Shown in pieces: positions 4,424 through 23,772 of a DNA stretch of 23,861 bases; position 1 is the first letter of the stretch, and each line of letters opens with the position of its first letter. The notes beneath the pieces were generated by a model. It saw only the letters and a list, made by a program, of their open reading frames with translations, was not told the origin of the DNA and did not search any database. Origin of the DNA: Gracilaria domingensis (lineage: Eukaryota > Rhodophyta > Florideophyceae > Gracilariales > Gracilariaceae); the NCBI GenBank assembly GCA_022539475.1, contig VCMS01000490.1, forward strand, positions 1 through 23,861. The letters are read 5' to 3'. The position numbers were made by a program, and so were the translations under genes.

Positions 4424-5692
4424 TTAGTTGGTCTTCGCCGATGAACTGAAAACTTTCTGCGTGAGATTTAGAATTGGCACCAGGACTTGACGAAGAGATT
4501 CTTGAAGGATTTGCATCCTGGACTCGCGTAGAGACTTGCTAGAAACGAATGGCATTGCGTCTGCTTCAGATGCGGAAACCTCGATCAGTGTGGTAGGGAA
4601 GTATGCCACTACTGTGAGGTCATCACGGATGCACTCACGGCGAAGCTCGTCCGAGAAGTTGAGAAATATGAGGTGAAGAGGATAGGCGGTAACCGATGTT
4701 TGCTTTAGAGTTGTTGAAGACTTATCGGTGTATACCTGCAGAAGACCTACGAAAGATTCACTGTAACTTATTTCTTGGGAGTACCACACTATTCTACTAT
4801 CCAACGAGCCCATGACCATTTCCTTAAGTTTTGAGGTGGCGTCTCTTGCGATAGAGCCGGACATGGGGTGAGATATTTTCGTGGAGTGGGTCTGAGGTAT
4901 AGGGTGGAAGAATGTTTTTTCGTTGTTAGCCAACTGGAGCTGTTTCACAAGTGTCTGAACGGGATCTCTCGTGTAGAGGGTGGCGCTGAACTTACATCCT
5001 TCTGGCGAGACAGTTCTTCGATTGAAACCGTCCTTTGAAGCGTATCGTTCGAAAATGGCGTTCTTCAGTTCTGTACAGCGCTTGGAACTTGTTATGGTCT
5101 CGTTGAATCGCTTTTGCGAGAATCGCGGGTCCCGAAGTAGCCCAATTAGCTCGTCTGCCTCACGATGACCAAGGTTGGAAGCTACTGAAGCCAGACAAAC
5201 CGTGAGATAATCCATATGCAAATCACCGAGGGCCTCCTCAGAAGGCACTGGGCGGGAACTGCTTCCGTGTTCTCGCTCTAATGACGCGGGACCCGGGGAA
5301 GGAGAAACACAATGCGTATTTTCCGGAATGGGAGGGGCGCACGGAGTGTGGTCAACGATTTCCTCGGACACCGGAGGCTCGGGAAGGCGAAAAGGGGCAG
5401 TGACCGTTTCGGAAGATGCGGCCGCGTACGCGGAAAGCTTGAGACGCTTGCTTCTCCGAATGGGCCGCCTATTGTCGTCTTCCAGCGCTGCTTTCAGATG
5501 AAACGGGCAATGGTTGACATGCTGTTGAAGAGATAAGACTCCTCGGCGAGTAACGAAGGGGCACACACGCTTCTTATGTGTACAGTAGTAGACCATGGGA
5601 AGAAGAAATGAACGAGAAACGACGACAAAGACTTCAAGGGAAGGTCGTCCGAAGGGAGAAGGAGGTCGAGCGACAGTCAAGATCGACGTCAT
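4424..5692 (-). CDS. Zinc-finger protein resembling a Plavaka-type transposase (N-terminal part)
   Basis: This is a 422-residue ORF from a true ATG (5692); a second Met at residue 33 precedes the finger and is an alternative start. Residues 37-62 form a Cys-x6-Cys-x13-His-x3-Cys cluster, ending NHCPFH, like N-terminal fingers of fungal Plavaka transposases. A Ser/Pro-rich linker (about 75-155) follows. The C-terminal half contains IVWYSQ, then VYTDKSST, a YPLHLIFLNFS segment, VVAYFP and a LQESLRQVLVPI helix. That order matches, from memory, the conserved 'WYS ... DxS ... WPvy..N ... vayiP' block of Plavaka/KDZ-related transposases. Those proteins are usually much longer, so this is probably a truncated remnant or a domesticated piece. 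No terminal inverted repeats were identified. The ORF is clear; the family assignment is inference. Confidence 0.5.
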   Translation of the reverse strand: MTSILTVARPPSPFGRPSLEVFVVVSRSFLLPMVYYCTHKKRVCPFVTRRGVLSLQQHVNHCPFHLKAALEDDNRRPIRRSKRLKLSAYAAASSETVTAPFRLPEPPVSEEIVDHTPCAPPIPENTHCVSPSPGPASLEREHGSSSRPVPSEEALGDLHMDYLTVCLASVASNLGHREADELIGLLRDPRFSQKRFNETITSSKRCTELKNAIFERYASKDGFNRRTVSPEGCKFSATLYTRDPVQTLVKQLQLANNEKTFFHPIPQTHSTKISHPMSGSIARDATSKLKEMVMGSLDSRIVWYSQEISYSESFVGLLQVYTDKSSTTLKQTSVTAYPLHLIFLNFSDELRRECIRDDLTVVAYFPTTLIEVSASEADAMPFVSSKSLRESRMQILQESLRQVLVPILNLTQKVFSSSAKTN

Positions 5693-7436: not shown

Positions 7437-7441
7437 CTTCT
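7437..7441. repeat. Target-site duplication, left copy (CTTCT)
   Basis: CTTCT immediately precedes the TG of the 5' LTR and is repeated exactly after the CA of the 3' LTR. Five bp is the usual duplication for Gypsy-type integrases. Confidence 0.95.
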
Positions 7442-8256
7442 TGTAGTGCAACGCGATTGCGGGACTCCTTCGCTGATGCGATTCATAACATGCACGGCGA
7501 TGCCGGGAGGTGGTGGCACACAGTATGAGTAACTGGTGAGATCAGCCCATTCTTGGGTATACTTAATATTAGAATTAGTGTTATGAGGCGCACGGCTTAG
7601 CCGGTGGGTCACACACGTGTGGGAAGTTTGCACCCATTAGTTGGGGTATTTTAGATGTTTATTCTAGATATTTTCGCTACACCGCTTGACAGTGGGTTGG
7701 CACTCTACACTACTTAGTAGGTTGAGCTGCACCCATTGTCGGGGAAGTAAACGAACGAACCGAGTGTTCGGCTCTGATGTTTCACCCTTGGTGACCGATA
7801 TCCTCCTCCCGGAGAGTCGACACCTTGTGCAGGGCTCATCATCCGCCTCGCGGCATCATTAACACCACTACCGCTTTCGCGTGTTTACTTTGTGTGTGTT
7901 TTCTTTATTTCTGTCCCTGTTATACAGGTAGCACTACTTGGTGTACCGGTGCATACCGTTCGTGGCTCGACACACTCGCGTGGGCTATTACCGCTCTCGC
8001 GTGTCATCGCCACACTCGTGGGTACCGCGTGCTACGCACGTGACGCTACTGCCGACTTGTGTCGTGTGTTCTCTACCGCTGGACGCTTCTTCTTCGCCGC
8101 TTCGCTCCCTCCATTACTTGGGAAGGGTCGACCCCGGTCTTACACCCGGCATTGCCGTGTCGTACCTGTGGGAGCGCTCTACTGCAGTGCTCGCCTCCTG
8201 AGAGAGGGTCTGAACCGCCTTGCGTGTCTTTCCCCATCGCTGGGTTTTGCACAACA
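7442..8256 (+). repeat. 5' LTR
   Basis: 815 bp, begins TGTAGTGCAACG and ends GGTTTTGCACAACA, 812/815 identical to the 3' LTR. U3, R and U5 limits cannot be read from the sequence, and I see no clear AATAAA. Long frames inside it (for example around 7892-8256) have no recognisable product. Confidence 0.97.
7869..8004 (+). promoter_or_regulatory. Paired 16-bp motif inside the LTR
   Basis: TACCGCTTTCGCGTGT (7869-7884) recurs as TACCGCTCTCGCGTGT (7989-8004), 15/16 identical and exactly 120 bp apart. Related CACTCG and CGCGTG words lie between them. The same pair is at 19311 and 19431 in the 3' LTR. It could be a binding site for a transcription factor driving the LTR promoter; this is inference. 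Confidence 0.35.
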
Positions 8257-8258
8257 AT

Positions 8259-8270
8259 TGGTCTCCCGAC
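8259..8270 (+). other. Primer binding site for minus-strand synthesis
   Basis: TGGTCTCCCGAC starts 2 nt after the 5' LTR and would pair with a tRNA 3' end of the form GTCGGGAGACCA. The acceptor-stem sequence is similar to some eukaryotic tRNA-Tyr, but the tRNA identity is not established. A small hairpin, CGACTT-AG-AAGTCG (8267-8280), overlaps its 3' edge. Confidence 0.75.
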
Positions 8271-8696
8271 TTAGAAGTCGCGTTGATCCAGCAAGTTGGT
8301 TTTCTGATCAATTTCCGGTTTGCCGGTTCGTATCTGGTCGTGGAGATACACTACACAGTTTCTACTGGAAGGCTTTGCCGACAGACGTCGTGTTGGTACT
8401 GATTTCCTCATTTTGGGTTGTTGTTTGGACACGGTTTACTACCGGTGGCACTACCTATTTCCGTAGTGTGTGATTCCCGTCGGTACGGTTGTTGTCACCC
8501 CGTTTGGGTTGTCTACCGTTCCCAGCAATCTGGTCGAATCAGCCCTAATTCCGTATACGGCTGTTCCCGTTGGTACGGTCGGTTCGTCCGATTTGTCGGT
8601 TATCGTCACTCGTGTGAGGACGCTACACTCATTCGAAGTTAATTTGTTGTTTTGCTTTCCTGGTCCCAGTTTTCTGGTTGTATCTCGTCGTGGACG
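8271..8696 (+). other. Untranslated leader before gag
   Basis: About 430 bp between primer binding site and gag. It is T/G-rich with short recurring GGTACGG and CCGTT words. Packaging or dimerisation signals would be expected here, but none is identifiable by eye. Confidence 0.6.
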
Positions 8697-10781
8697 ATGG
8701 TGTCGGGCAAGCGCTCGAGCCCTACGAAGTCTCGCTCCGTTGGCTCTGGCTTGCCCCCACGCCTGCGGTCTGTTCCTGAACCCCTACAGGGTGATGGAAA
8801 GAAACCCGGAAACCGGAAACAGCCTGACAAGTCGTCTGACGCCCCAGTGGCTGGGCCCTCATCTGCTCCTTTGGAGGGTCTTATACCCGCTGTCGCGGCG
8901 ATGGATGCGCTCGTAAACGAGTTGGAGACTCAAGTTCGTGTGCTTGAGGCTCAGACTGCTGTCATGAGGAGTTCTCATGAAGCACTCGTTTCCGAGGTCG
9001 ACACACTTCGTTTGAAGGTTGACGCAGCCCTCAACGGAGGTGTATCAGATGATCTACGTATTTTACGGAAGGATGTTAATGCTCTCTTGGAGGTTCTTCA
9101 AGGATATCCCAGTTTCACCGAGGAGGTTAACACGAAGTTCATTCGGATCCTTGGCCGTCTTGAGACGTTAGAGGCCACCATCCGTGAGGATGACGGCCCT
9201 GCTGCCGCCTCTGCGGGAGTGTCTCGTGGTACACGTGACCGGAAGTCCGGGAAGAGTCGCTCTAAGAAGAGGAATGTCGACGAGTATGACTCGGATTCGT
9301 CACAGTCTTCTGGTATTTCAAACCGCTCGGCGGGTTCCTTATCATCGAGCTCGTCAAGTGACGGTGAACGTCGCGCTCGTTCTACGCGTTCGCGGAGTTC
9401 TACGTCCACCTATGGTGTTGTTGGTACCCGGAAACGGGGGCGAAAGCACTCAGGTTTGAGGGAACTGGAGCCGACGAATCCCTTGTTCAAAAGGTTGTTA
9501 TCTTACCGGTATTACCGTTTGGAAGATTCAAGTCTGAACCGGACGCCCCGTGGCACGGGTAAGGTGAAGGACTGCATCAAACGCATGTCCTTAACCTTTC
9601 GCAACCAGTTGTTCACTGGGGAGGATCCCATTCTGGTGCTCGACTTTCTTTCACGCTTTGTAGCGGAAGCTGACATCCTCGGCATGAGTGAGGGGCAAGC
9701 TTATGTTGCCTTACCGTATTTTCTACGGGGACTCGCTGAAGATCAGTATAACTCTGTAAGAGGTTCATCTCGCGCCTCTGAAGGAGGGGTCACCTGCTGG
9801 CCCGAAGCAGTGCAGTATTTGTTGCGCTCGTATGCGACAAATACCTCTATCGAGGAAGCAATCACCGCGTTGCGGGAGACGAAACAACGCCCGAAGGAGT
9901 CGGAAACCGAGTACTCGGTACGCCTGAATAAGGCATTCCACCGTTGTGGCAATGTTTACTCCTCAAACGAGCGCTGTACGCTGTTTATCAACGGATTGAA
10001 TCCGGCTATTCGCACTCTGGTTGCCCAGCGACGGGAAGACCGGAAGAAGACTACCTATCTGGAGTTAGTGCAGTACGCGAAGGCGGAGGGAGACGCCTTG
10101 CGCGCACGCACCGGATACCGGGTTTCAACCAAGGCGTTGCACCTCGAAGGAGGGTCGTCATCGGCTTCACTGCTACCGCAGGACTTTTCTGGCCACGATG
10201 TGGATAACTTACATCTCGCACAGGTGGACCTGGATTCTATTCCGACTACGGAGTTGCCTTCTACTTCAGAAGCCTCGTCGAAGACGGAAGATGCGCTGCT
10301 TTACGCAGACCGTCCACGCGTTCGCGGTCCTCAAGTACCCTATTCAGGGAGTCGTTACCAGCGACCTGGTTGGGTAGACCCGCGAACGGTGAAGTTCCAA
10401 GACCCACGGAGTTCCGGAAGACCACCCCTGATCTGTTTCACGTGTTACAACCACGGTCATGCAGCTCCGAACTGCAACCTCTCGATGAGGGAAATGCCCA
10501 CGGTTGTGGCGAATTTTGAAGCGCTGACCCCCGCCGAACAGGCGTCAGTGCCGGTAACCGCATATCTGCGTGCGAAGGCTGAGTACCCCCGTAGGGTGTC
10601 TGCTGCAGAATTGGCTGCGTTACTGCACTCTGGTTCGACCCAGGTCAATGTTTCACCGGCTCAAGCCGTGGCGGCAACCGCTGTTGCGGGTAGTTCTGTC
10701 GCTGTTCCACAGGAATCTGTGAAGATGCCTGCTGCACAGGACGCCGTTCCCGTTAGAACGGATGGAACTCAGTTAAACTGA
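8697..10781 (+). CDS. gag: Gag polyprotein
   Basis: 694 residues from the first ATG in frame (8697); the frame is open a little further upstream without an ATG. It forms the virus-like particle and binds element RNA. Visible in order: a basic N-terminus (MVSGKRSSPTKSRS), a predicted coiled coil (VNELETQVRVLEAQ region, nt about 8910-9030), a Ser/Arg-rich basic stretch with a KKR run (nt about 9240-9460, possible nuclear localisation), a helical capsid-like retrotransposon Gag domain (nt about 9570-10120, LFTGEDPILVLDFLSRF to LFINGLNPAIR), and a single CCHC zinc knuckle, C-x2-C-x4-H-x4-C (nt 10433-10474), followed by an Ala/Val-rich tail. The stop TGA directly follows a slippery heptamer, so some ribosomes continue into pol. 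Confidence 0.95.
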   Translation: MVSGKRSSPTKSRSVGSGLPPRLRSVPEPLQGDGKKPGNRKQPDKSSDAPVAGPSSAPLEGLIPAVAAMDALVNELETQVRVLEAQTAVMRSSHEALVSEVDTLRLKVDAALNGGVSDDLRILRKDVNALLEVLQGYPSFTEEVNTKFIRILGRLETLEATIREDDGPAAASAGVSRGTRDRKSGKSRSKKRNVDEYDSDSSQSSGISNRSAGSLSSSSSSDGERRARSTRSRSSTSTYGVVGTRKRGRKHSGLRELEPTNPLFKRLLSYRYYRLEDSSLNRTPRGTGKVKDCIKRMSLTFRNQLFTGEDPILVLDFLSRFVAEADILGMSEGQAYVALPYFLRGLAEDQYNSVRGSSRASEGGVTCWPEAVQYLLRSYATNTSIEEAITALRETKQRPKESETEYSVRLNKAFHRCGNVYSSNERCTLFINGLNPAIRTLVAQRREDRKKTTYLELVQYAKAEGDALRARTGYRVSTKALHLEGGSSSASLLPQDFSGHDVDNLHLAQVDLDSIPTTELPSTSEASSKTEDALLYADRPRVRGPQVPYSGSRYQRPGWVDPRTVKFQDPRSSGRPPLICFTCYNHGHAAPNCNLSMREMPTVVANFEALTPAEQASVPVTAYLRAKAEYPRRVSAAELAALLHSGSTQVNVSPAQAVAATAVAGSSVAVPQESVKMPAAQDAVPVRTDGTQLN

Positions 10782-12754
10782 GTACGGGAGTCTCCAATGG
10801 AGAGGCGCCCGAGTCGAGGTCTACGGCGCCCGAGGCGTCACCGCCTCGCTCCCAGGTCAAAATCCTTTCGAGGAAACAGACCGTCTTAGACGTGGACTCT
10901 ACCACCATCGGTGTGTTACGTCGCCCGTGGATACGGTTCAGGAACAACCGGATCCCGGATCGAGTCATGGTGCTGGCCAAGCGAAACTACAAGATATTTG
11001 CTGACCTTGGCCTATCCACCCAGTATATGGTGCGTCATCTCTCTGTCTTGGATACAGGTGCTGGCCCCAACTTCATTGTTGAGTCGTTACTACCGCCGGA
11101 AGTCCGTTGTCGAATCCGCTCTGGACCCGTCATGGACGTGTCAGATGCTAACAATAACCCGTTACAAACGGCTGGAATGGTTTCACTGATTGTCAGGATT
11201 GGTAACTGCATCGAGCAGGTAGAATTCATCGTCTGCAAGACGCTCGCTGCCCCTGTCATTCTAGGGTGTGACTTCTGCGACAGATATGTCGAAGCCATAC
11301 GACCGCGTGCGCGTGAAGTGGAAATGGAAGATGGTTCGGTTGTACCGATTGTTCGTCGCTCATTACGCCGAGCGTCAGCTAAGCTGGTACCACTACCCGC
11401 TCCTCTACAGGACTCCTCACCTCCGAAGGAGTCGCCGAAGCTCCGCGTAGCGCGTGCAATTTCTATTCCGCCAGAATCCCAGGTTTGGGTTGATGTTACT
11501 GCCGCACCGCGTGGTTTGCGGGTTGTTCAACCATTGAACTCGTTATACGAGAAGTATCAGGTCGCGTTGGCGAACGGAGTTGTTCAAATCAACAGCGAAC
11601 ACCCCTTTCGGGTTATGTTGGCCAACTTTGGCAAGAAGCCCCAGTATCTGGTGAAGAACCAAGTAATTGGTACTGTCTTACCGCACCCTACGGCGCTTAT
11701 CCTTACAAAGGTGACTGCCGCCGAGATGCTCGGGCTTGCTGAAGAACGCACTGGGGTGCTTCACCCTAAGGAGGGGGAGGGAGAATCGTCGCGCTCGTCT
11801 GCGTCGGACCCGTCCCAGACGGTTGAACACACGAATGACTCGGAAGCTAAGACCGTTCCTACGAGTTATGACAAGATTGACCCTATCAAGGAGTTAGAAG
11901 AATTGAATCTCGGTCATGTACCGGTTTCACACCGTGAGAAGTTGCGCAACATGTTGCGAGAGTTTACACCAATGTGGGATGGCTCCCTCGGAGAGGTTTC
12001 AACTACGGAACACCGGATTGACCTCCTGCCGGAGACCAAGCCGATTGCTCAGCACCCTTACAGGGCAGGCCCGAAAGCACGGGAAGAGGAAGAGTTTCAG
12101 ATCAACAAAATGCTCCGCGCTGGCGTGATAGAACCGGCTCAGTCGCCGTGGGCATCTCCAGTTGTACTGGCTCCGAAACCCGATGGGTCCTGGCGCTTTT
12201 GTATCGACTATCGTCGCTTGAACGATGTCACCGTCAAAGACGTGTACCCCATACCTCGTATGGACGAGTATATCGACTCGCTTGGCGATGCTACTGTTTT
12301 CTCCACTTTGGATGCAAACTGGGGTTACTGGCAAGTACCAGTTAGACCGGAAGACCGTGACAAGACCGCGTTTACCTGTCATTCAGGACTATACCGCTTT
12401 AAGCATATGCCGTTCGGGTTAACGAACGCCCCCGCTACGTTTCAGCGTGCCCTGGACATTTTGTTAGCTCGCTTCAAATGGCGGAGTTGCTTGGTATACC
12501 TCGATGACATCATCGTGTTTTCCAACAGTTTGGACGATCACCTCGAACATGTTCGGGAGATAATGACCGCTTTGCGGGATGCTGGAATTACTCTCAAATT
12601 GAGGAAGTGTGAGTTTTTCACTGACTCAGTGAAGTATCTGGGCCATGTCATACGTCCAGGACGGTTACTGATCGAGGAAGCTCGCGTGAAGTCCCTCAAA
12701 GAGGCGAAGCACCCCACTACACAGACAGAGCTACGCTCCTTTCTGGGGCTATGA
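10757..12754 (+). CDS. pol: Pol, first part: protease and reverse transcriptase
   Basis: Open in the -1 frame relative to gag from 10757; no ATG is expected because translation enters by frameshifting. The aspartic protease has its active-site triad in VLDTGAGPNF (Asp codon at 11051) and a VILGCDF C-terminal motif. The reverse transcriptase region (nt about 12030-12760) shows SPWASPVVLAPKPDGSWRFC, YPIPRMDEYID, FSTLDANWGYWQV (first catalytic Asp), MPFGLTNAPATFQR and the catalytic YLDD box (12497-12508), then KYLGHVI. The frame ends at TGA (12752-12754) inside FLGL-stop-NVYRRF, where Gypsy elements usually have Cys. The next part continues in the same frame, so this is a point nonsense mutation rather than a natural end. 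Confidence 0.95.
   Translation, partial: NGWNSVKLSTGVSNGEAPESRSTAPEASPPRSQVKILSRKQTVLDVDSTTIGVLRRPWIRFRNNRIPDRVMVLAKRNYKIFADLGLSTQYMVRHLSVLDTGAGPNFIVESLLPPEVRCRIRSGPVMDVSDANNNPLQTAGMVSLIVRIGNCIEQVEFIVCKTLAAPVILGCDFCDRYVEAIRPRAREVEMEDGSVVPIVRRSLRRASAKLVPLPAPLQDSSPPKESPKLRVARAISIPPESQVWVDVTAAPRGLRVVQPLNSLYEKYQVALANGVVQINSEHPFRVMLANFGKKPQYLVKNQVIGTVLPHPTALILTKVTAAEMLGLAEERTGVLHPKEGEGESSRSSASDPSQTVEHTNDSEAKTVPTSYDKIDPIKELEELNLGHVPVSHREKLRNMLREFTPMWDGSLGEVSTTEHRIDLLPETKPIAQHPYRAGPKAREEEEFQINKMLRAGVIEPAQSPWASPVVLAPKPDGSWRFCIDYRRLNDVTVKDVYPIPRMDEYIDSLGDATVFSTLDANWGYWQVPVRPEDRDKTAFTCHSGLYRFKHMPFGLTNAPATFQRALDILLARFKWRSCLVYLDDIIVFSNSLDDHLEHVREIMTALRDAGITLKLRKCEFFTDSVKYLGHVIRPGRLLIEEARVKSLKEAKHPTTQTELRSFLGL
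10772..10778 (+). promoter_or_regulatory. Slippery heptamer for -1 gag-pol frameshift
   Basis: G TTA AAC in the gag frame is followed at once by the gag stop TGA (10779-10781). Pol is open in the -1 frame from 10757, so the two frames overlap by 25 nt, including the heptamer. GUUAAAC is a known functional -1 site (used, for example, by equine arteritis virus). After the slip the reading is Val-Lys-Leu-Ser, in frame with the protease. Confidence 0.9.
10786..10853 (+). promoter_or_regulatory. Frameshift-stimulating RNA: gap-free four-way junction
   Basis: It starts 7 nt after the slippery site. Outer stem: GGGAG (10786-10790) with CTCCC (10849-10853). Arm 1: TCTCC-AAT-GGAGA (10791-10803). Arm 2: GGCGCC (10804-10809) with GGCGCC (10825-10830), 15-nt loop. 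Arm 3: CGAGGCG-TCAC-CGCCTCG (10831-10848). All four helices abut with no unpaired base at the junction and all 23 pairs are Watson-Crick. The same bases also encode the start of pol in the -1 frame. The pairing is read directly; the stimulatory role is inferred from position. Confidence 0.8.
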
Positions 12755-15700
12755 AACGTTTATAGACGGTTCATTTCTCGCTTCGCAAAGATCGCGGGAC
12801 CGCTCAACGAACTCCTGAAGAAGGGACAACCGCCCAAATTGGGACCACTTACCCCCACGCAAGTGGAGGCCTTCAACTCTCTTAAAGAGGCTGTTACCAC
12901 GGCACCCGTGTTAGCGTTACCAAAGAACGGGTTGCCGTACACCGTGGATACGGATTCGAGCGATTACCAAATTGGCTGCGCTCTCTTTCAGAGTACACCC
13001 GAAGGGGAACGCAAACCAATTGGCTATTGGTCTCGTACACTCAACGTGCACGATCGCAATTACTCGGTATCCGAGAAGGAGTGTCTCGCCATGGTATGGG
13101 CTTTGCAGACTCTACGACCATATCTTATGGGTGTGCACTTTACCGTCAATACGGATCATTCCGCCTTGCGTTGGTTAATGTCAGTCACGGAGCCTTCCGG
13201 ACGCTTAATGCGTTGGCGTCTTCGGCTTGCCGAGTTTGACTACGAGGTCACCTATAAGAAGGGTTGTTTAAACGCGCAAGCGGATGCTCTTTCACGCCTA
13301 GGAACTGAAGGTGAAGCTTTACCCGTCGATGACGAGGATGAAGATATCCCCTGTTTCCTCATGGAGGAGGGTGATGAAGACTACGACATCGTGTCGGACG
13401 ACATCTGTGATGATTTGCTCGTCGCAGACGGTGAAGACCCGGAATCCGGTACATTCGTCCCCATTACTCCAGAAGAGCTGGTGCGGGAACAGCAATCTGA
13501 CCCGTTCTGTACGAGGATACGCTCCCAAATTAATGGTGGTGCTAACATCCCGTTCGGGGTCAACACACAAGGTTACCTCGTCAGAGTGGTTCGTTCTGCC
13601 CCACAGATTGTGATTCCTCACTCCTTACAAACAAGGGTATTGCATCTCTCGCATCACTCGCGGATGGCTTCCCATCCGGGTGCTAAGCGGTTATACACGA
13701 CACTGCGTCGGGATTTCTACTGGCCCGCGTTAGCGTTGGACTGCTACACCACCGTGAAGGCGTGTACACATTGTGCTCGCGAGCGAGTTAAACAGCGTCG
13801 CCATGCGAAGAAACTAACACTTTTCCCCGCAAGGGCGCCGTTGGAGTTTATTGCCATCGATATACTCGGTGAGTTCTTGCGTACTTCCCGAGGAAATCGG
13901 TTCTTACTCGTTATTACGGATAGATTCAGTAAGCTAGTCCGGACAGTTCCGTTGAAGTCGATTACAGCACGCAGTGTTGCGGAGGCATTCGTTCGCCATT
14001 GGGTTATGGTCTACGGTCCCCCGGTCAATCTCCTCTCAGATAATGGTCCGCAGTTTACTGCACGTTTCTTCCAGGATGTCTGTCGGATACTCGACGTGAA
14101 GAATCTCTTCACGACGACGTATCATCCCCAATGCAATGGGCAAGTCGAACGGTTTAACCGGACAATGCTCTCCGCGTTGCGGGCTTATACAGTTGAACAC
14201 CCGAAAACTTGGGATCTCTACACGGATACCGTGACGTATGCGTATAATACGCAAGTTCACAGAGTAACTGGTTTATCGCCCTTTGAGCTCGTGCTCTCAC
14301 GGACACCACCGCCAGTTGCGGTTGAACCATCAGCAAAGCTGGATACGTCACCGTCAATACGGGATCACTACTTGCAATGGAAGCAGTGGTTATCCGCAAT
14401 GGTACCTGTCGCCAGGTCGTCAATGGCGAAAGCACAACACGCTTACAAGCGGAACTTTGATGCCCGGGTACGGAGACCACTACCGCCACTGAAAGTGGGA
14501 AACCTCGCCTTTGTCAGGAAGGAGTACTACAACCCTGAAAAGGAGCGGCGCCACAAGCTTTCACCCATCGCTGATGGTCCATACCGCGTTATTAGCGTGA
14601 ATACGGACACAGTCGTACTGGAAGTTGGCGACGCTCATGAGCGTTTCTCCCGCGATCGCGTTGTGCAGGGCCCAACCGTGCACACGGAAATAGTTTCAGA
14701 TTCACAGCAGGAAGCTGGACAGACACAGAACCGAGAATTCTCGTCGCAGAACACTACACCTAGTGTGGGGCTTCGCAACCCTGCAAGGGGTCTCGCAGAG
14801 GTACCGATTATATCGTCCCAAGCCGAGATATCGGAACATACACCGCTGGTGAAATCGCGTTTCACAGCGTCTATTACACCGTCAACAGACGTGATGACTG
14901 CTCCCCGTAACGCTCCACCTAAGAAGGGGGAGGAGGATTCACGCTTCGTCGCGGAGAGTGAGTCACCGGTGTCGCTACCGTCGCAGCACCGTGATTCACG
15001 GGAAGATAATGAAGAGGAGGCGGGGTCGCCTCAGGACACCGTCGAAGACGTAGTTGCTACGGACACCACTGTCAGTGGGAAGGATCACCCGCTGTCGCGT
15101 GTTGAGGCCGCGAAGGACGCGCTCCAGTCGGCCGCTGTCGCGCAGAACTCCGCGGAGGATGCACAACCTTCTACGAAGGATCGCGACCTTTCTGAAGGAT
15201 ACCGCACGCAACGAACGGACTCGAGGTTGTCCCAGGATACTGGTATCGCTCACCCGCTGGGGGAATTGTCGCCAGAACACGCGCCCATCGCCTCGTCGGC
15301 GCAGGACGCGGAGCATGCTCTCGTTCGCGACGTTACCACGGCAAGGCCGGAAGTTGATCAAGAACACTCGACTTCTCGGCAGAGTGAGGCTACAGCGAAG
15401 CTGGATAGTGTATCACGGAGTATTCCGGACGCGCAGTCGCCGCAAACCGTCGCTGACGACCGCCACATACCGCCTTCGCGGGCGCGCACTAAGGAAGTCA
15501 CGGCAGATCCCGGTACCTTAGACACTGCAGAGCAGGAAGAAGAGGAGACGCTCGCTGAAGCGAAGATCACACACCCCGGTTCGGGTAATGGTAGTGCACC
15601 GTTGCACCCAGCCGTGGGGAAGTCGCAAGTCGCACGTCATGACGTTTCGATAAGTCATGACGGCGCACCGCTCGCTGGAGATACGGATTACAGCCCTGAT

Positions 15701-16312
15701 TTAGGGAAAACGCACACTGCATCTGCAGGAGCGCTTGCGCACCACAAATCTTGGGGTGCGCAGCGCGCGCCACACAATGGGCCAATCACAGCTCGTGGCA
15801 GTGCCACCACCACGAAACGTCGCGTGTCGTCACGTGAACCGGCACGTGCCGTGGTGAACAATCCGCCTCCGCGTCTGCCTTCACCGTCAGGACGGGAACT
15901 ACAGCGTGAACTAGCCGTTCGCGGACCCGCCGAAGCGGCGAAGCTGCTTAAAGAAGCCCGGAAACGGGAAACGAACACTCAGCAGAGGGCAAGTCTACCG
16001 CCGAAGGCGTCAGGAGAAACTCACAGCACCGCTGGTGACGAAGTTACGGCACCGCCGCGGCGCGCTGACGACCTTTCGCAGGAAGAGCTCGAGCGGGGCG
16101 TATACTCGAAAGAGTTCGTCGTAGACCACATCGTGGGACACAGTTGGAACCCGAAGGGGTATGTTCAGTACCAGGTACGCTGGTATGGCTATCCGCCGTC
16201 GCGGGATTCCGACGAACCCGTGGAGCACTTACCCCGATCGAATATCGTGCAGTACCATCGTCGAACTAACACGGCGTTGCCGGCTAACCTACATCAAGCG
16301 ATGGTCGGATAA
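12755..16312 (+). pseudogene. pol: Pol, second part: RNase H, integrase, chromodomain (downstream of in-frame TGA)
   Basis: 1185 codons in the same frame as the first part, open but cut off by the TGA. RNase H: TVDTDSSDYQIGC, SEKECLAMVWAL and NTDHSALRWL supply the acidic residues. Integrase: an HHCC finger (SHHSRMASHPG ... CTHC), then a DD35E core with Asp codons at 13859 and 14039 and Glu at 14147 (NGQVERFNR). A GPY/F-type module follows (KLSPIADGPYRVI). A linker of about 490 residues, Ser/Glu/Ala/Thr-rich and apparently disordered, runs to about 16100. The chromodomain (16106-16266) reads EFVVDHIVGH ... YQVRWYGYP: F, W and Y occupy aromatic-cage positions, but the Trp of the usual WEP is replaced (DEP). 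The chromodomain is expected to guide integration to particular chromatin. The linker is unusually long for the family. Confidence 0.93.
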
Positions 16313-16920
16313 CACACGTCGTGGGAGACGGAGGCTTATCGCGTACCGCGCACGAACGGTCCTACGAACGACAACACTCAATCGAGGAACACTGCGACAA
16401 CCTCCAGAGGAGTATTGTACCGCTACTCGCGTGGTGAGGAGACACTCTAGGGAGAGAAAAGTTGAAGTTCGAACAGTTATGCCCTCAGGAAGAGGAGACG
16501 ATAGATACACTCGAAAGAGGAAGAAGACTCTATAAAGAGGAAATGAAGCTCGAAAGAGAAAGAAGAACTCTATGAAGAGGAAATGGAAACTCGTAAGAGG
16601 AAGATTACCCCGAAAGGGAGAAGTTATGAAGTATGTACCTTGAGAAAGGAAAGAAGCCTTGAAGTTAAGAGAAGTCACAGTTTTACTGGTTATCGTAACT
16701 ATGTTGCGGCTCGCTACTCGAGCCCGCAACCGCCTAGCTAATGGGTATTACCCAGGGGGGGGCTCCATGGAGGAGAAGTTGCACGAGTCACTCGGAACTA
16801 GGCTGATTGTTCGCGAGCTGCGCAAGGAGAGCATCGCGCATTTGCGAAACGTCCCCCGACGCTGCGTCGGAAGCACCAGCCTCGCTGAGGAACTGAGCAA
16901 TCACGGCAGCCCGTACTTCA
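16313..16920. other. Spacer between pol and the antisense ORF
   Basis: Non-coding junction between two convergent reading frames. It contains purine-rich degenerate repeats (separate entry), a G-run at about 16755-16762 and a palindrome CTCCATGGAG (16763-16772). GGGT-ATT-ACCC lies at 16743-16753. It may hold 3' ends for both transcripts; no polyadenylation signal was recognised. Confidence 0.6.
16510..16620 (+). repeat. Degenerate about 40-bp purine-rich tandem repeat
   Basis: CTCGAAAGAG starts at 16510 and 16549, then CTCGTAAGAG at 16590 and a CCGAAAGGGAG relative near 16610. Each is followed by GAAGA-ACTCTAT-AAGAGGAAAT-like sequence. The surrounding 16450-16680 is strongly purine-rich on the plus strand. 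Confidence 0.75.
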
Positions 16921-18000
16921 TCAGAGATACCCGCGTTCGCGGCTTCGTTCGGCGCAGCTGACGCCGCCATCGCAGAAGGCAGCACTCTCTGGAGTCGAGA
17001 CAACCACTGGTGTGGGTACAGGAACCGCTTGAGGCGCAGAAGGAACATTCACCGCGCCCGACAAGGTCGCGTTAGCACCCGCTTGGGGACCTGGCACTGC
17101 TGAAGCAGGTACTGTCCCCTCCACCGGAGCTGCCACGAAGTCGTCGTCGCCGTACTCGTCACCGTCATCGGGAGCGTCGTCAACCATGATGTTCTGGTCC
17201 CCAACAGGGTGGAAGAACTCATCAGTTATGATGAAGCCCGTAGGGTGCCCCGGAGGGATGACTCGCTCGGCGTTCCGAAGGAGCTCCGCCTCGGCGTTGG
17301 TAATCGGCACCCGTGTCCAGGGGTCGTAATAGATGTAATCACCCGACAGTGGGGACCTGCGACCCGGAGACCGATCAATAGCGGAATCGCCTTCGTCCCG
17401 CGCGCTCTGCGAAAGAGGAACTTGACTCCAGTCAACGCCATCGATCACTCGCAAGAGGCACATGACTTCCGAGAAGTTTCCATTACCGCCAAGCGGGATA
17501 GTGAGATCCAAGGCTCGGATGAGTTGCCGCAAGCGCGGGGGAATGAACCACAGTCGATACTGGTCATATACCTCGTTGAGGAGATACACCGCTGTTCGCG
17601 CCGCCCACTCCGTGAGGACAACGCTCCACCATCCCGTAAACGGGTTTGTCACGAGCCTACTACCCACATACGTGAGACAGGGGGGGAGTTCCACGTAACA
17701 GCCACGGCAGACCTCCACGGACGCCCACACAAAGGGGAGAGGAACATATCTCCCACGCATGTGGCGCGGACGAATCCGGTTTGACTCCGTGTTTTGATAC
17801 GGGATAAGGTAACCCCATCGGGAGCGGGCACGTCGTTCGGGACGGATCATTGTTTGAAGGTAGTTGGACCGCGGTACGCGTGGGAGATATCGAAATTCTG
17901 CTCGCAGAAGCGGACGGGTCCAGCACAGGAGATCCTGGTGAACGGGGACGTTCTGGTAACGCTCCACCACACCGGCGAGCCGGGCAAGATTCTCTCCATA
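16921..18000 (-). pseudogene. Antisense ORF, C-terminal segment (after in-frame TAA)
   Basis: 359 codons, in the same frame as the segment at 18001-18804 and separated from it only by TAA (18001-18003). It has no ATG for about its first 50 codons, so it is best read as the continuation of one protein rather than a separate gene. The first 200 residues are rich in Arg, Tyr and Trp and look globular (for example LLCWTRPLLRAEFRYLPRV, NPFTGWWSVVLTEWAAR, YRLWFIPPRLRQLI). Then come a Ser/Arg region, an acidic stretch (DDAPDDGDEYGDDDF) and an Ala/Pro/Val-rich tail ending at TGA. I recognise no family. It is encoded against the direction of gag-pol and lies wholly inside the element. Confidence 0.7.
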
Positions 18001-18804
18001 TTAGATTTCGCCGAGTGTTCGGAAGAAGGCCACGTCGAAACGGAAGTTCGCCGGAATCGGGCGCTCTGAGTACGTGCGAAACATGCGCATGTGCGCTACG
18101 CGAACCATGGCCGCTCGGGCGGAGTTGTGCGACTGACCACGATGGTGGACGAGCGCGTTGGTAGGCACGGTAATCCGGTAATGCCAGTCGAACGTCACCG
18201 TCATCCAGACGTGCACGCCTCCTGGGAGGTGACCACTGCCATCGGCATACGCCTCGACGAGGGAACGATTGGTCACGCCTTGCGGATGAAACCACGGAGC
18301 TCGTAAGAACGGTGTGGGATTGCTGCGAGGGTCGACGTTGTCGAGTTCGTCATACGACGCCCACGCGCCCGCATACGGGTTGACTACCGGTTGGACCGGA
18401 ACAGCAGGAGCGATCCAGTTCCACTGCGGTACAGACGCCGGGGGCGGAAGTTGACCACCCGTCTGGGGAAGAGGAGCCGTGTGAAATCCCGGATTGACCG
18501 GTTGCGGAAACGGAACGCCAGCGGAAGACGGCTGTGAGAGAGGCACTCCAGAGGAGGAAGGGTGTGAAGGCCCAGCGAAACCACCAACGTATTGGTTCTG
18601 AGACCCGCCAGGCGGTTGGTTGCTACCCTGATTCGGGTTCGGCATCGCGGGAAGCGCGCGAGGAAGAGACGAAAGCGCTGGAAGCGAGAGAGAAGGGAGA
18701 GCGCGCCGAGGTATCGGAGGAGACACTACCGCAGTACGCGTGGAGAGGGGTGGACCGGAGTCGCCGTTAGAAGAGACCGGGGAGGCTGGATTGGAGGCCG
18801 TCAT
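18001..18804 (-). CDS. Antisense ORF, N-terminal segment; unknown protein
   Basis: 267 codons from a true ATG at 18804, 79 bp inside the 3' LTR boundary, so its promoter would lie in the 3' LTR or the junction. The frame is open further upstream without an ATG. Residues 1-125 are Pro/Ser/Gly-rich and disordered, with an imperfect 10-residue repeat (SSGVPLSQPS, SAGVPFPQPV). The rest looks folded (WNWIAPAVPVQPVVNPYAGAW, HVWMTVTFDWHYRITVPT, MRMFRTYSERPIPANFRF). It ends at TAA after RTLGEI, and the same frame runs on for 359 more codons, so this is probably a nonsense mutation in a protein of about 627 residues. Antisense ORFs between pol and the 3' LTR are known in some plant Gypsy lineages (Tat type); I see no recognisable similarity to those. 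Confidence 0.7.
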   Translation of the reverse strand: MTASNPASPVSSNGDSGPPLSTRTAVVSPPIPRRALPSLSLPALSSLPRALPAMPNPNQGSNQPPGGSQNQYVGGFAGPSHPSSSGVPLSQPSSAGVPFPQPVNPGFHTAPLPQTGGQLPPPASVPQWNWIAPAVPVQPVVNPYAGAWASYDELDNVDPRSNPTPFLRAPWFHPQGVTNRSLVEAYADGSGHLPGGVHVWMTVTFDWHYRITVPTNALVHHRGQSHNSARAAMVRVAHMRMFRTYSERPIPANFRFDVAFFRTLGEI

Positions 18805-18870
18805 GCCGACGTGCTTAAATACACTCCAGAGGAGGAAAGCGAAACCGCTCGCGTGGTCGTCTCGCACCCT

Positions 18871-18883
18871 AAGGAGGGGGAAA
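18871..18883 (+). other. Polypurine tract
   Basis: AAGGAGGGGGAAA directly abuts the TG of the 3' LTR. This is the expected primer for plus-strand synthesis. Confidence 0.95.
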
Positions 18884-19698
18884 TGTAGTGCAACGCGATT
18901 GCGGGACTCCTTCGCTGATGCGATTCATAACATGCACGGCGATGCCGGGAGGTGGTGGCACACAGTATGAGTAACTGGTGAGATCAGCCCATTCTTGGGT
19001 ATACTTAATATTAGAATTAGTGTTATGAGGCACACGGCTTAGCCGGTGGGTCACACACGTGTGGGAAGTTTGCACCCATTAGTTGGGGTATTTTAGATGT
19101 TTATTCTAGATATTTTCGCTACACCGCTTGACAGTGGGTTGGCACTCTACAATACTTAGTAGGTTGAGCTGCACCCATTGTCGGGGAAGTAAACGAACGA
19201 ACCGAGTGTTCGGCTCTGATGTTTCACCCTTGGTGACCGATATCCTCCTCCCGGAGAGTCGACACCTTGTGCAGGGCTCATCATCCGCCTCGCGGCATCA
19301 TTAACACCACTACCGCTTTCGCGTGTTTACTTTGTGTGTGTTTTCTTTATTTCTGTCCCTGTTATACAGGTAGCACTACTTGGTGTACCGGTGCATACCG
19401 TTCGTGGCTCGACACACTCGCGTGGGCTATTACCGCTCTCGCGTGTCATCGCCACACTCGTGGGTACCGCGTGCTACGCACGTGACGCTACTGCCGACTT
19501 GTGTCGTGTGTTCTCTACCGCTGGACGCTTCTTCTTCGCCGCTTCGCTCCCTCCATTACTTGGGAAGGGTCGACCCCGGTCTTACACCCGGCATTGCCGT
19601 GTCGTACCTGTGGGAGCGCTCTACTGCTGTGCTCGCCTCCTGAGAGAGGGTCTGAACCGCCTTGCGTGTCTTTCCCCATCGCTGGGTTTTGCACAACA
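18884..19698 (+). repeat. 3' LTR
   Basis: 815 bp with the same ends as the 5' LTR and three substitutions from it. On the minus strand, the interrupted host frame reads into it from 19698 to a stop near 19556, adding a foreign C-terminus of about 48 residues to the host ORF. Confidence 0.97.
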
Positions 19699-19703
19699 CT
19701 TCT
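19699..19703. repeat. Target-site duplication, right copy (CTTCT)
   Basis: Exact match to 7437-7441, directly after the terminal CA of the 3' LTR. Confidence 0.95.
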
Positions 19704-21800: not shown

Positions 21801-23772
21801 TCAGCCTTGTATAATGTTCAGCATGGTATCGTTGCCGAAGATACCGAACGCCTCCGTGAGCTCGTACCCGCCATCTGCCGCAGCCAGTTGCATCTGCTTC
21901 AAGAATTTGGGCGCCGCCTCTCCGTACGCTCTCTGCAAAAAGTTGATCACGTCCTGGCCGCCCATCTTCCTCGGCCATTCCTTCGCCCAATGCGGTCTCA
22001 ACTTCAGAGCCTCGCCCGTCAGAGGATTCTTTAACGTCTCCCATCGTGCCACGACGCGGTCCACAAACGCCTTCCACTCCTCCTCCTCCACCAGCGTGTT
22101 TGTCAGCACTTCAATCGCGCACGTTCCATGCACGTTCCCGCGCTGCGTGCTCATAAGGGTGTCACTGCCACCTACTATCCTCATCTCCACTGCCGTTCGC
22201 ATTGGCACTTCGCCCCGTTCTTCAAGAGACTCATACACCTCGCTGATTGCGTGCCACCACGCCTTTCTACAGATGGAAAAGTCTTGCTTACCGTCCTTCG
22301 TGCCTGGAATCTCGATCGATACCTTCGTGTCACGAACCGGTATGCGGTGAATGCCACGGCGAAAGTGCAGTGCGTTAGACACACTTGTGGACAAACTGCC
22401 TGTCGGCAGAAAGAACATGGCCGCCGTGCCGAATAGTCTGGCTTGCACCTTGTCGGGAAGGAACTTAAGCAGTGTCACTTCAAACAGTCTGGAGATCGAG
22501 GATTGAAGATTTTGATTCTCCACCTCCTTGGCGTCAGGGTAAACTGGGCGCTCGTCTCCTACTGCTGTAACGTTCCAGCTGTTAAGCCAACACTCATCCT
22601 GAAATGGGAACCAGAACCATTCCGAGTAGAACTTGTTTGCGTCACGTTCAAAGTCTCGTTCTGCCTTCCTCAATTGGCTTTCTGAGAAGTCTGTTCGAAA
22701 GTCTTTTTGAGTCGGCATATCTTATCGCTCTACAGGCGGCACAGAGAGCATCGTATCAATCTTGCGAGGGAAAAGCCGGGCGATCTTCATTGGGTCCATG
22801 ACCAACACCTGGGACACCACCACGCCTAGCATCCCAAAGCTACCCGCTACCGCACGCAGCTGCTGCTTGAGATGGTCTGTAGCACACCCTTGCAGTTAAC
22901 GATAGTCATCTCCACGCAAAGGTCAGGCACCGACGGATGGGTGATTCCTGCACCGTGACAAATAGGCTGCGTCCAGCCACGGCTGGTAATTTCCGTGAGA
23001 ATGGGCAGCGAGCGAATCATCCATTGCCAATCACCACCCCCTCGCTCGTTCGACAAGGTTCACTGCCGGAAATGCTCACTTGTGGCTGCTCCGCCGAGAC
23101 GAATACGCGCGTAACGCGAACCGTCCTCGGCGGTAAAAGTACCGTCAAACGCCACGGTTTCCAGCTCGTTGTCTTGCGGATTGTCCTTCGGCGGCAGCCA
23201 GTGAATTTGTGGGATGGCAGCGCCTATCTCCATCATAGAAATCATGATGTCGTTTGCGCTACCATATATGGGCGACCAACTGTGACGACTACCAGATACA
23301 CGAACGCGACGGTGCGACTTTCGAGCGAACTTGACGATATTGATGACGCCTAGCTGGGTCTTTGGAAAAAATGTGTACGAAGTTGGGAACGACACAGTTT
23401 CGCCCCAGTTGCGGAACGGCTCATTGAAGAAGACTTTGACGGGGCTGCCGTCTCTCTCTACGACACTTGGCACACCGTTCGGGTCTGGGCTGAGAAAAAT
23501 TGATGAGCCATCAGAACGGCGACCTGTGCGGAGGTCTTGCTTGGAAAGGGCATCATTACGGTGCAGCCTCACAATGGAGGCCGTGGCGGGATCGGCTTCC
23601 AGCCATTGGGCAATGAATTGCGCGATAAGGTCGTCGTGCCGGTCGGCAATGCGTGCAATGTCGCGGATGTGGCGTTTGAAGGCGCGTTCAAAGCCAAGGT
23701 GGGCCACGAGTTGCTTACAATGTGTGGTATCCTTGTAACTTTTTTTTCATGTTCTGTCTCGAAAGTCACCAT
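21801..23772 (-). pseudogene. FAD-linked oxidoreductase (D-arabinono-1,4-lactone oxidase type), broken
   Basis: Members oxidise sugar lactones or related substrates with FAD. Order on the minus strand: PDPNGVPSVVERDG and FFNEPFRNWGETVSF, then the FAD-binding (PCMH-type) segment with VRVSGSRHSWSPIY, RIRLGGAATSEHFRQ, ICHGAGITHPSVPDLCVE, and an ALO-type C-terminal domain with FRRGIHRIPV, VEMRIVGGSD and LRPHWAKEWP (the His-Trp-Lys signature), ending at TGA (21801-21803). Breaks: an in-frame TGA at 23060-23062 directly after EHFRQ, where Trp would fit; a frameshift between about 22875 and 22890 (after GVLQTIS); and an in-frame TAA at 22722-22724. A likely original ATG at 23772 is joined only through a run of eight A (23740-23747), a possible fourth break. 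Introns do not explain the breaks, since conserved coding sequence continues on both sides. Confidence 0.8.

Follow-up and report, generated by a model that had tools for sequence, protein, structure and literature searches.

How ribosomes reach pol in a retrotransposon whose pol lies in the -1 frame relative to gag, and whether an RNA fold placed directly after the end of gag takes part in it, is the question raised by the locus analysed here. It belongs to a long terminal repeat (LTR) retrotransposon of the red alga Gracilaria domingensis (assembly GCA_022539475.1, contig VCMS01000490.1, here C490), assigned by its domains to the Ty3/gypsy chromodomain group. The window, i.e. the whole stretch of DNA analysed, comprises 23,861 nucleotides (nt), positions 1 to 23,861 of the forward strand. 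An initial annotation, made from the letters of the window, had proposed a -1 frameshift signal composed of a slippery heptamer, a 7-nt spacer and a four-way RNA junction. Our analysis supports this interpretation as a predicted function: slip site and junction very probably constitute the gag-pol -1 programmed frameshift signal of a Ty3/gypsy chromodomain lineage.

Reading frames, slip site and spacer

The frames and the slip site are located as follows.

8643-10781, + strand: gag open frame; first ATG of the frame at 8697, stop codon TGA at 10779-10781
10757-16312, + strand: pol open frame, -1 relative to gag; last stop at 16310
10772-10778, + strand: slippery heptamer G_TTA_AAC
10779-10785, + strand: spacer of 7 nt, starting with the gag stop codon TGA

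The 3' end of gag reads ...CAG TTA AAC TGA, with GTTAAAC adjoining the stop codon as initially annotated, and the 7-nt spacer was confirmed as well. The two frames overlap by 25 nt only (pol is open from 10757) and GTTAAAC lies inside this overlap, which is the arrangement of overlapping frames proper to a -1 shift. Because of these frames and the short overlap, -1 slippage is the simplest route from gag to pol.

Among 38 distinct copies of the region, described below, the spacer measures 7 nt in 37 and 6 nt in one, within the range of about 5-9 nt usual for -1 frameshifting. By alignment columns, a stop triplet follows the heptamer in all 38 (TGA 28, TAA 9, TAG 1); in one locus, L032, the heptamer and stop columns are out of register with the gag frame. 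The heptamers are GGGAAAC (14 copies), GAAAAAC (13), GTTAAAC (4) and GGAAAAC (2), with AAAAACC, AAGAAAC, GAAAAGC, GAAGAAC and AAAAAAC found once each. The strict X_XXY_YYZ pattern is present in 15 rows (14 with GGGAAAC, one with AAAAAAC), and the rows with GTTAAAC and GAAAAAC carry relaxed heptamers with the AAAC half intact. Equine arteritis virus uses GUUAAAC (a string not found in the searched part of the review referred to next). Part of that review places G_GGA_AAC and A_AAA_AAC among the shiftiest heptamers with mammalian ribosomes (PMC5009743).

The four-way junction in this copy

Downstream of the spacer, the RNA folds into an outer stem (P1) enclosing three hairpins (H1 to H3), with lengths given in base pairs (bp).

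10786-10853, + strand: whole junction, 68 nt, minimum-energy fold
10786-10790 / 10849-10853, + strand: P1 outer stem, 5 bp, GGGAG/CTCCC
10791-10795 / 10799-10803, + strand: H1 hairpin, 5 bp, loop AAT (3 nt)
10804-10809 / 10825-10830, + strand: H2 hairpin, 6 bp, GGCGCC/GGCGCC, loop of 15 nt
10831-10837 / 10842-10848, + strand: H3 hairpin, 7 bp, CGAGGCG/CGCCTCG, loop TCAC

Each helix abuts the next and the junction contains zero unpaired bases, as described in the initial annotation. Energy minimisation of the 68 nt returned this fold, at -36.3 kcal/mol and with 2 extra pairs within the H2 loop. The gap-free four-way topology was met in none of 4000 synonymous recodings, and 4000 dinucleotide shuffles produced it once. 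Furthermore, when the whole contig was scanned in 11,897 windows of 68 nt per strand, taken at every second start, it was unique to this locus, the matches on the minus strand being the same locus. Energy alone is unremarkable: of 4000 recodings and 4000 shuffles, 27 and 35, respectively, are equally stable, the folding energy has a z of -2.90 with 1 of 200 shuffles as low, and more stable folds exist elsewhere in the window. The rare feature is the topology, not the energy. No Rfam family matched in the window at gathering scores, and none matched 10740-10930 up to an E value of 1. It should be added that a direct repeat, GGCGCCCGAG, was seen by eye at 10804-10813 and 10825-10834, spanning the H2 arms and running into the first bases of the H2 loop and H3, respectively.

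Copies, sub-families and sampling

Copies were sought in one 77.9-Mb assembly of 680 contigs. The 82-nt junction region occurs with at most 3 differences at 93 places in the genome, 58 of them with none. Divergent copies were obtained by a search for the protease-like motif DTGAGPN excluding the window's codon (158 matches, 30 retrieved from the first 100) and by a search with the coding stretch after the junction (60 matches, all retrieved). Some loci are one place retrieved twice, e.g. L032 and L061. The retrieved copies and the window's own group gave an alignment (A1) of 38 distinct rows, each matching the downstream coding pattern. Left out of it were L078 (containing Ns), L054 (in A2 only), L121, L122, L125 and L127 (changes in the coding pattern), L128 (unmatched) and L129 (a copy of sub-family E with both P1 arms changed). 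L122 and L125 have common changes that break P1 and H2. When the search pattern was used without the 3' arm of P1, 58 matches were returned, 49 of them shared with the P1-containing pattern; the nine extra copies lack an exact CTCCC, and L129 is the one of them that was read.

By downstream pol sequence, the copies form sub-families A (with the window), B1, B2, C, D, E and F. Trees were built from copies within this genome only, and the pol tree used for tracing changes has 24 rows. The placement of L063 is unsure, since it groups with C on a very long branch. Its locus has a second junction-like match on the opposite strand and its pol sequence diverges from the C group some 150 nt past the junction, so that it perhaps comprises nested or rearranged copies. 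An earlier reading of L063 as a recombinant was withdrawn, the grouping behind it having rested on that reverse-strand match.

Within the window's sub-family (35 variants, 80 of 82 positions), singleton substitutions fall on 12 paired, 5 loop, 1 slip-site and 1 spacer positions, out of site totals of 44, 22, 7 and 7, respectively; stems are thus not spared by singletons, as in dead copies. Nine substitutions are shared by two or more copies: the four found in at least four copies all lie in spacer or loops, and the five found in two copies all lie in stems. As for relatives elsewhere, a piece of pol had no match among viral contigs. The pattern AAACTRANNNNGGGAGYCTCC was found at 6 viral-contig and 29 genome-contig loci, and as 0 of these 35 had a fitting heptamer plus CTCCC where the 3' arm of P1 would lie, they were taken as chance.

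Conservation and covariation of the stems

RNAalifold, applied to a MAFFT alignment made independently of structure, returned the four-way shape with 18 pairs. The 23 pairs of the window are kept in 91.5% of 873 cells across the 38 copies; with partners slid by 1 to 3 columns, only 40.3-54.4% are paired. The alignment scores 0.144 for covariation, whereas shuffles average 0.094 (standard deviation 0.006), and 34 cells are changed on both sides against 13.5 in shuffles.

The initial annotation had called for compensatory changes in each of the four stems. They are present in H2 and at the branch point (next section), in H3 at the loop-closing pair only, and are lacking from H1, which has one-sided changes only, and from P1, which is invariant. 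In H2, traced on the pol tree, pair 54-80 changes from CG to TA on the internal branch before E, and pair 57-78 changes from CG to TA on the internal branch before B1 with B2, both under either resolution of ties; pair 53-82 changes from GC to AT before B1 if ties favour pairing. The arms consequently read GGCGCC/GGCGCC in A, GACGTC/GACGTC in B1 and GGCGTC/GACGCC in B2, and these substitutions change amino acids while the pairing is kept. H2 is longer in some sub-families. In H3, covariation is confined to the loop-closing pair 90-95, where internal-branch breaks occur too, with the pair regained later in D and part of E (ties favouring pairing).

Uncompensated breaks in relatives, named in the initial annotation as evidence that would refute its proposal, do occur. 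With ties favouring pairing, two H2 breaks lie on internal branches and so mark clades, at 57-78 in E and at the loop-closing pair 58-77 in D; apart from these, the H3 break at 90-95 and the branch point, the breaks in the traced pairs fall on single tips.

Third positions of pol codons, compared across 7 sub-family representatives, are unusually conserved in the stems. At the 16 stem sites their identity is 0.86, compared with 0.59 at 7 loop sites and 0.53 at 35 sites downstream. Stems differ from downstream third positions with a Mann-Whitney p of 0.0006, which serves as a guide only, as the sites share a tree and the search pattern itself includes 2 of the stem sites and a few of those downstream. 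Within stems, the codon positions are evenly conserved (third 0.86, first and second 0.87 and 0.88). Selection thus appears to act on the stems at the RNA level. Covariation is silent on P1, where no change is inherited; the case for its pairing comes from energy, invariance and third codon positions.

A second hairpin, enclosing the slip site itself, can be drawn.

10767-10783, + strand: possible hairpin ACTCAG/CTGAGT, loop TTAAA; tentative

The fold of 10760-10900 contains a 7-bp form of it. Sub-families A, B2, C and D show covariation at two of its pairs, and several pairs are broken in B1 and E. Its reality is tentative, because pairing (73.7% of cells vs 71.9% in shuffles) and covariation (a score reached by 28 of 500 shuffles) barely exceed those of shuffled alignments.

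The branch point

In sub-families A, B and C, U at column 35 pairs with A at column 51, and C at column 84 with G at column 101. D and E have C at column 35 and U at column 84 instead, making C35-G101 and A51-U84 possible. The quartet U, A, C, G is found in 20 of the 38 rows and C, A, U, G in 14, and either set closes two pairs; the four rows that fit neither are L032, L049, L097 and L099, with L032 closable both ways. On the tree, columns 35 and 84 switch between the same clades, D versus C and E versus the rest, i.e. in two switches. The two quartets differ as if the junction had moved by one base pair, which would allow it to stay closed, and an intermediate with a U84-G101 wobble would stay paired throughout. 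If confirmed in other species, this one-pair shift would provide a clean evolutionary record of selection for closure.

Folds of individual copies and competing structures

Each of A, B1, B2, C, D and E has at least one member whose lowest-energy fold is the zero-gap four-way junction. When folding was constrained to the core, the four-way fold lay within 1.0 kcal/mol of the minimum in 27 of 38 rows and within 3.0 kcal/mol in 35, and it was gap-free in 25. Twenty rows were folded together with shuffles: the zero-gap junction came out in 9, a three-branched loop with 2-10 unpaired bases in 7 and no such fold in 4. The E copies L066, L067, L087 and L107 have the closed junction. Four helices are found both in this copy and in the alignment fold, and not the three of a junction of the type reported for insertion sequence IS911. 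Nor was a conserved pairing of loop bases outside their hairpin seen, as expected of an H-type or three-stem pseudoknot: in 14 rows, no ungapped five-base pairing between a hairpin loop and the outside that is compatible with the four helices was found in 9 or more. The suggestion that the 15-nt H2 loop makes further tertiary contacts accordingly finds no conserved compatible partner in these rows, and the loop varies in both length and sequence.

Several observations weigh against a conserved, gap-free junction acting as the stimulator. All copies derive from one genome, and the 3' arm of P1 belonged to the search pattern that supplied most rows. P1 also shows no covariation, being invariant. 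Of the -21.62 kcal/mol given by RNAalifold, covariation accounts for no more than -0.49, and H2 is recovered there with 3 pairs. Neither the count of doubly changed pairs (4, shuffles 4.9) nor that of further pair types (15, shuffles 17.3) exceeds the shuffles. The heptamer of this copy departs from the strict X_XXY_YYZ rule. Moreover, only 17 of the 38 rows have the zero-gap junction as their fold of lowest energy, and only 18 keep every counted core pair together with the closed junction. For the E variant L101, present in six places, a four-way fold that leaves 8 bases unpaired is favoured by 3.0 kcal/mol, and the same holds for L038, L086 and L096 of this sub-family. The GAG- and CTC-rich arms permit alternative five-base pairings in 9 to 13 of 14 rows, for example of the H1 5' arm with the H3 5' arm (13 of 14) or of the H2 loop with the H3 3' arm (11 of 14), and further register shifts recur. 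Finally, in this copy a long-range fold that pairs the H2 loop region with 10880-10900 has similar energy and wins in some longer pieces. The folding check that the initial annotation proposed therefore has two outcomes: the junction is the minimum of the 68 nt, and in longer pieces the competing fold is sometimes favoured, the probability of the full junction ranging from 0.02 to 0.52 depending on where the piece ends.

Proposed mechanism and alternative explanations

The reading frames, slip site, spacer, common fold, compensation in H2, coordination of the branch point and conservation at the RNA level were obtained by computation, and the pausing, slippage and stimulation by the junction RNA are deduced from them. 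A ribosome near the end of gag would hold UUA in its P site and AAC in its A site, directly before the stop codon, while the closed four-way junction at the mRNA entry channel would resist unwinding. Some ribosomes would then slip back by one base on G_UUA_AAC and continue into protease, reverse transcriptase, RNase H and integrase. The helices may stack coaxially in pairs, and such stacking would explain why few or no junction bases are unpaired. We further suggest that the whole lineage may have evolved a gap-free, unknotted junction as a stimulator in place of the pseudoknots that its sister lineages seem to have, and that selection keeps its branch point fully paired, even through branch migration by one step, because unbroken coaxial stacking at the ribosome entry site would be what makes it effective. 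This broader proposal we regard as evenly poised between right and wrong; its odds are lowered by the commonest E variant, whose lowest-energy fold is not closed.

In our judgement it is unlikely that these bases act as a stimulator in some other fold, be it a pseudoknot, a long-range pairing with downstream sequence or a four-way structure with gaps. Such a fold would accord with the success of the pairing between the H2 loop region and 10880-10900 in some pieces, with the H2 loop/H3 3' arm pairing and recurring register shifts, with the 21 of 38 rows in which the zero-gap junction is not of lowest energy, and with the resemblance of two to four sister lineages to H-type pseudoknots. Against it, the downstream partner region of the competing fold differs between sub-families, the loops have no conserved pairing compatible with the four helices in the 14 rows, and the substitutions track the four-way fold, branch point included. 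It is still less probable that the fold serves RNA dimerisation, packaging or another step, with frameshifting left to the slip site and any roadblock. GGCGCC and GACGUC are palindromic, and palindromes are a common kissing motif; yet the palindrome is not kept, B2 having GGCGUC/GACGCC and C and E differing as well, and the fold lies 7 nt past the slip site in 37 of 38 rows, where a stimulator must be.

We consider it highly improbable that the pairing arose incidentally, from conservation of the protein encoded by the pol leader and from G+C-rich sequence. The peptide GVS..GEA...PEA.PPRS.VKIL is indeed partly common to the copies and the folding energy alone is unexceptional, but none of the 4000 synonymous recodings has the gap-free fold, third codon positions in the stems are conserved like first and second ones, and the H2 changes alter amino acids yet keep pairs. 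Hardly to be expected, too, is that pol is made by stop-codon readthrough or separate initiation. In favour of this, Tca2 is described as having a possible pseudoknot after a gag UGA (PMC2194720); readthrough of TGA would however stay in the gag frame, whereas pol is in the -1 frame and open only from 10757, with the slip site within the 25-nt overlap. The frameshift signal formed by slip site and junction hence remains the reading we prefer.

The host element and its surroundings

The remaining features of the element on C490 are listed below.

7442-19698, + strand: LTR retrotransposon
7437-7441 and 19699-19703: target-site duplication CTTCT, 5 bp, flanking the 5' and 3' LTRs
7442-8256, + strand: 5' LTR, 815 nt, starting with TG and ending with CA (base-by-base extension)
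18884-19698, + strand: 3' LTR (base-by-base extension)
11051-11071, + strand: aspartic protease-like motif DTGAGPN in pol (Pfam gag-asp_proteas, E 0.099, below cut-off)
12173-12652, + strand: reverse transcriptase domain (PF00078, E 5.5e-38)
12935-13237, + strand: RNase H domain (PF17917, E 1.5e-34)
13835-14128, + strand: integrase core (PF00665, E 1.1e-10)
16115-16261, + strand: chromodomain at the end of pol (PF00385, E 4.1e-6)

The LTRs differ by 3 mismatches over 815 nt in base-by-base comparison (blastn: 818 nt, 4 mismatches). Between them, reverse transcriptase, RNase H, integrase and chromodomain follow in the order of Ty3/gypsy chromodomain elements (chromoviruses), with the protease seen as a motif only. 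Judged by these sequences, the element is a young Ty3/gypsy chromodomain retrotransposon. Its pol is interrupted in this copy by a single in-frame stop at 12752. The C-terminal region of gag contains a CCHC zinc-knuckle-like stretch, CFTCYNHGHAAPNC, seen by eye; gag had no Pfam match at 1e-3, and the zinc knuckle likewise had none. A protein search with one piece of pol gave 436 matches; among the 120 listed, six are from the red alga Agarophyton chilense and one from a bacterial metagenome bin. The best A. chilense match has 66% identity over 77% of the query, higher-ranked matches covering more. The lineage is probably red algal, because the matches include these A. chilense proteins; an oomycete origin, considered at first, was given up on the same grounds.

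Directly after the 5' LTR, at 8259-8276, TGGTCTCCCGACTTAGAA resembles by eye a tRNA primer-binding site. Between pol and the 3' LTR, the minus strand has long open frames at 16921-17970 and 18001-18867 with no Pfam match, which are perhaps a captured or antisense gene. Outside the element, the minus strand carries an open frame at 4424-5692 that matches Plavaka transposase (PF18759) at the curated cut-off, and another at 21801-22718 with a weak match to D-arabinono-1,4-lactone oxidase (PF04030), below the curated cut-off.

Sister lineages with putative pseudoknots

In other gypsy lineages of the same genome that carry DTGAGPN, slip-like sites (GGAAAAC and GGGAAAC among them) are followed by putative H-type pseudoknots, found by plain enumeration of stems without energies and with slip sites assigned by hand. 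The clearest candidates are L031 and L043. Stems 1 and 2 are of 9 bp each in L031 and L060, and L050 and L039 are without them; the stems are of 9 and 7 bp in L043, and of 7-8 and 7 bp in L036, L048, L053 and L055. L034 has a 6-bp second stem with a lower-ranked first stem, and L040 is weak. Two to four sister lineages may therefore use pseudoknots, and if these are right, the junction lineage departed from a pseudoknot background. The genome would then offer a natural comparison of related gag-pol junctions, some with putative pseudoknots and one with a four-way junction.

Comparison with known frameshift signals

Stimulators of -1 frameshifting are mostly regarded as hairpins and pseudoknots, and we know of no closed four-way junction in the frameshift element of HIV-1. 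Perfect (4H) four-way RNA junctions, such as the one carried by the hairpin ribozyme, likewise leave no base unpaired where their four helices meet, and are not known to be linked to frameshifting. The open-licence PubMed Central papers searched, in listings and passages, described neither a closed four-way junction acting as a -1 stimulator nor the present element. What is new here is a -1 signal whose stimulator would, on present evidence, be a conserved four-way junction, gap-free in many sub-families. If this is true, an elaborate stimulator needs no knot, and a junction kept by compensation offers a new test of mechanical resistance versus stacking versus refolding as the driver of slippage.

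Among the stimulators named in part of a review are hairpins, pseudoknots and the three-way junction of IS911 (PMC5009743). IS911, of the bacterial IS3 family, is comparable as a mobile element with a branched and unknotted stimulator, and differs in having three helices (PMC5009743, in part). HIV-1 likewise has a gag-pol signal, classed there among elaborate stem-loop structures (PMC5009743, in part). Viral frameshifting elements with solved structures also place a stable RNA after the slip site; the part of a survey available describes three motifs, one unknotted and two pseudoknotted, and names no four-way one (PMC9408923). For the recoding site of umbravirus-like RNAs (ulaRNAs), an alternative to the main fold is described, which part of the source says needs more experimental evidence (PMC8068935). 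The -1 signals of retroviruses and of PEG10 share with the present one a heptamer, a short spacer, structured RNA at the entry channel and a shift from gag to pol. PEG10 and Ma3 use pseudoknots according to part of the same review (PMC5009743), whereas the stimulator proposed here would be an unknotted, gap-free four-way junction.

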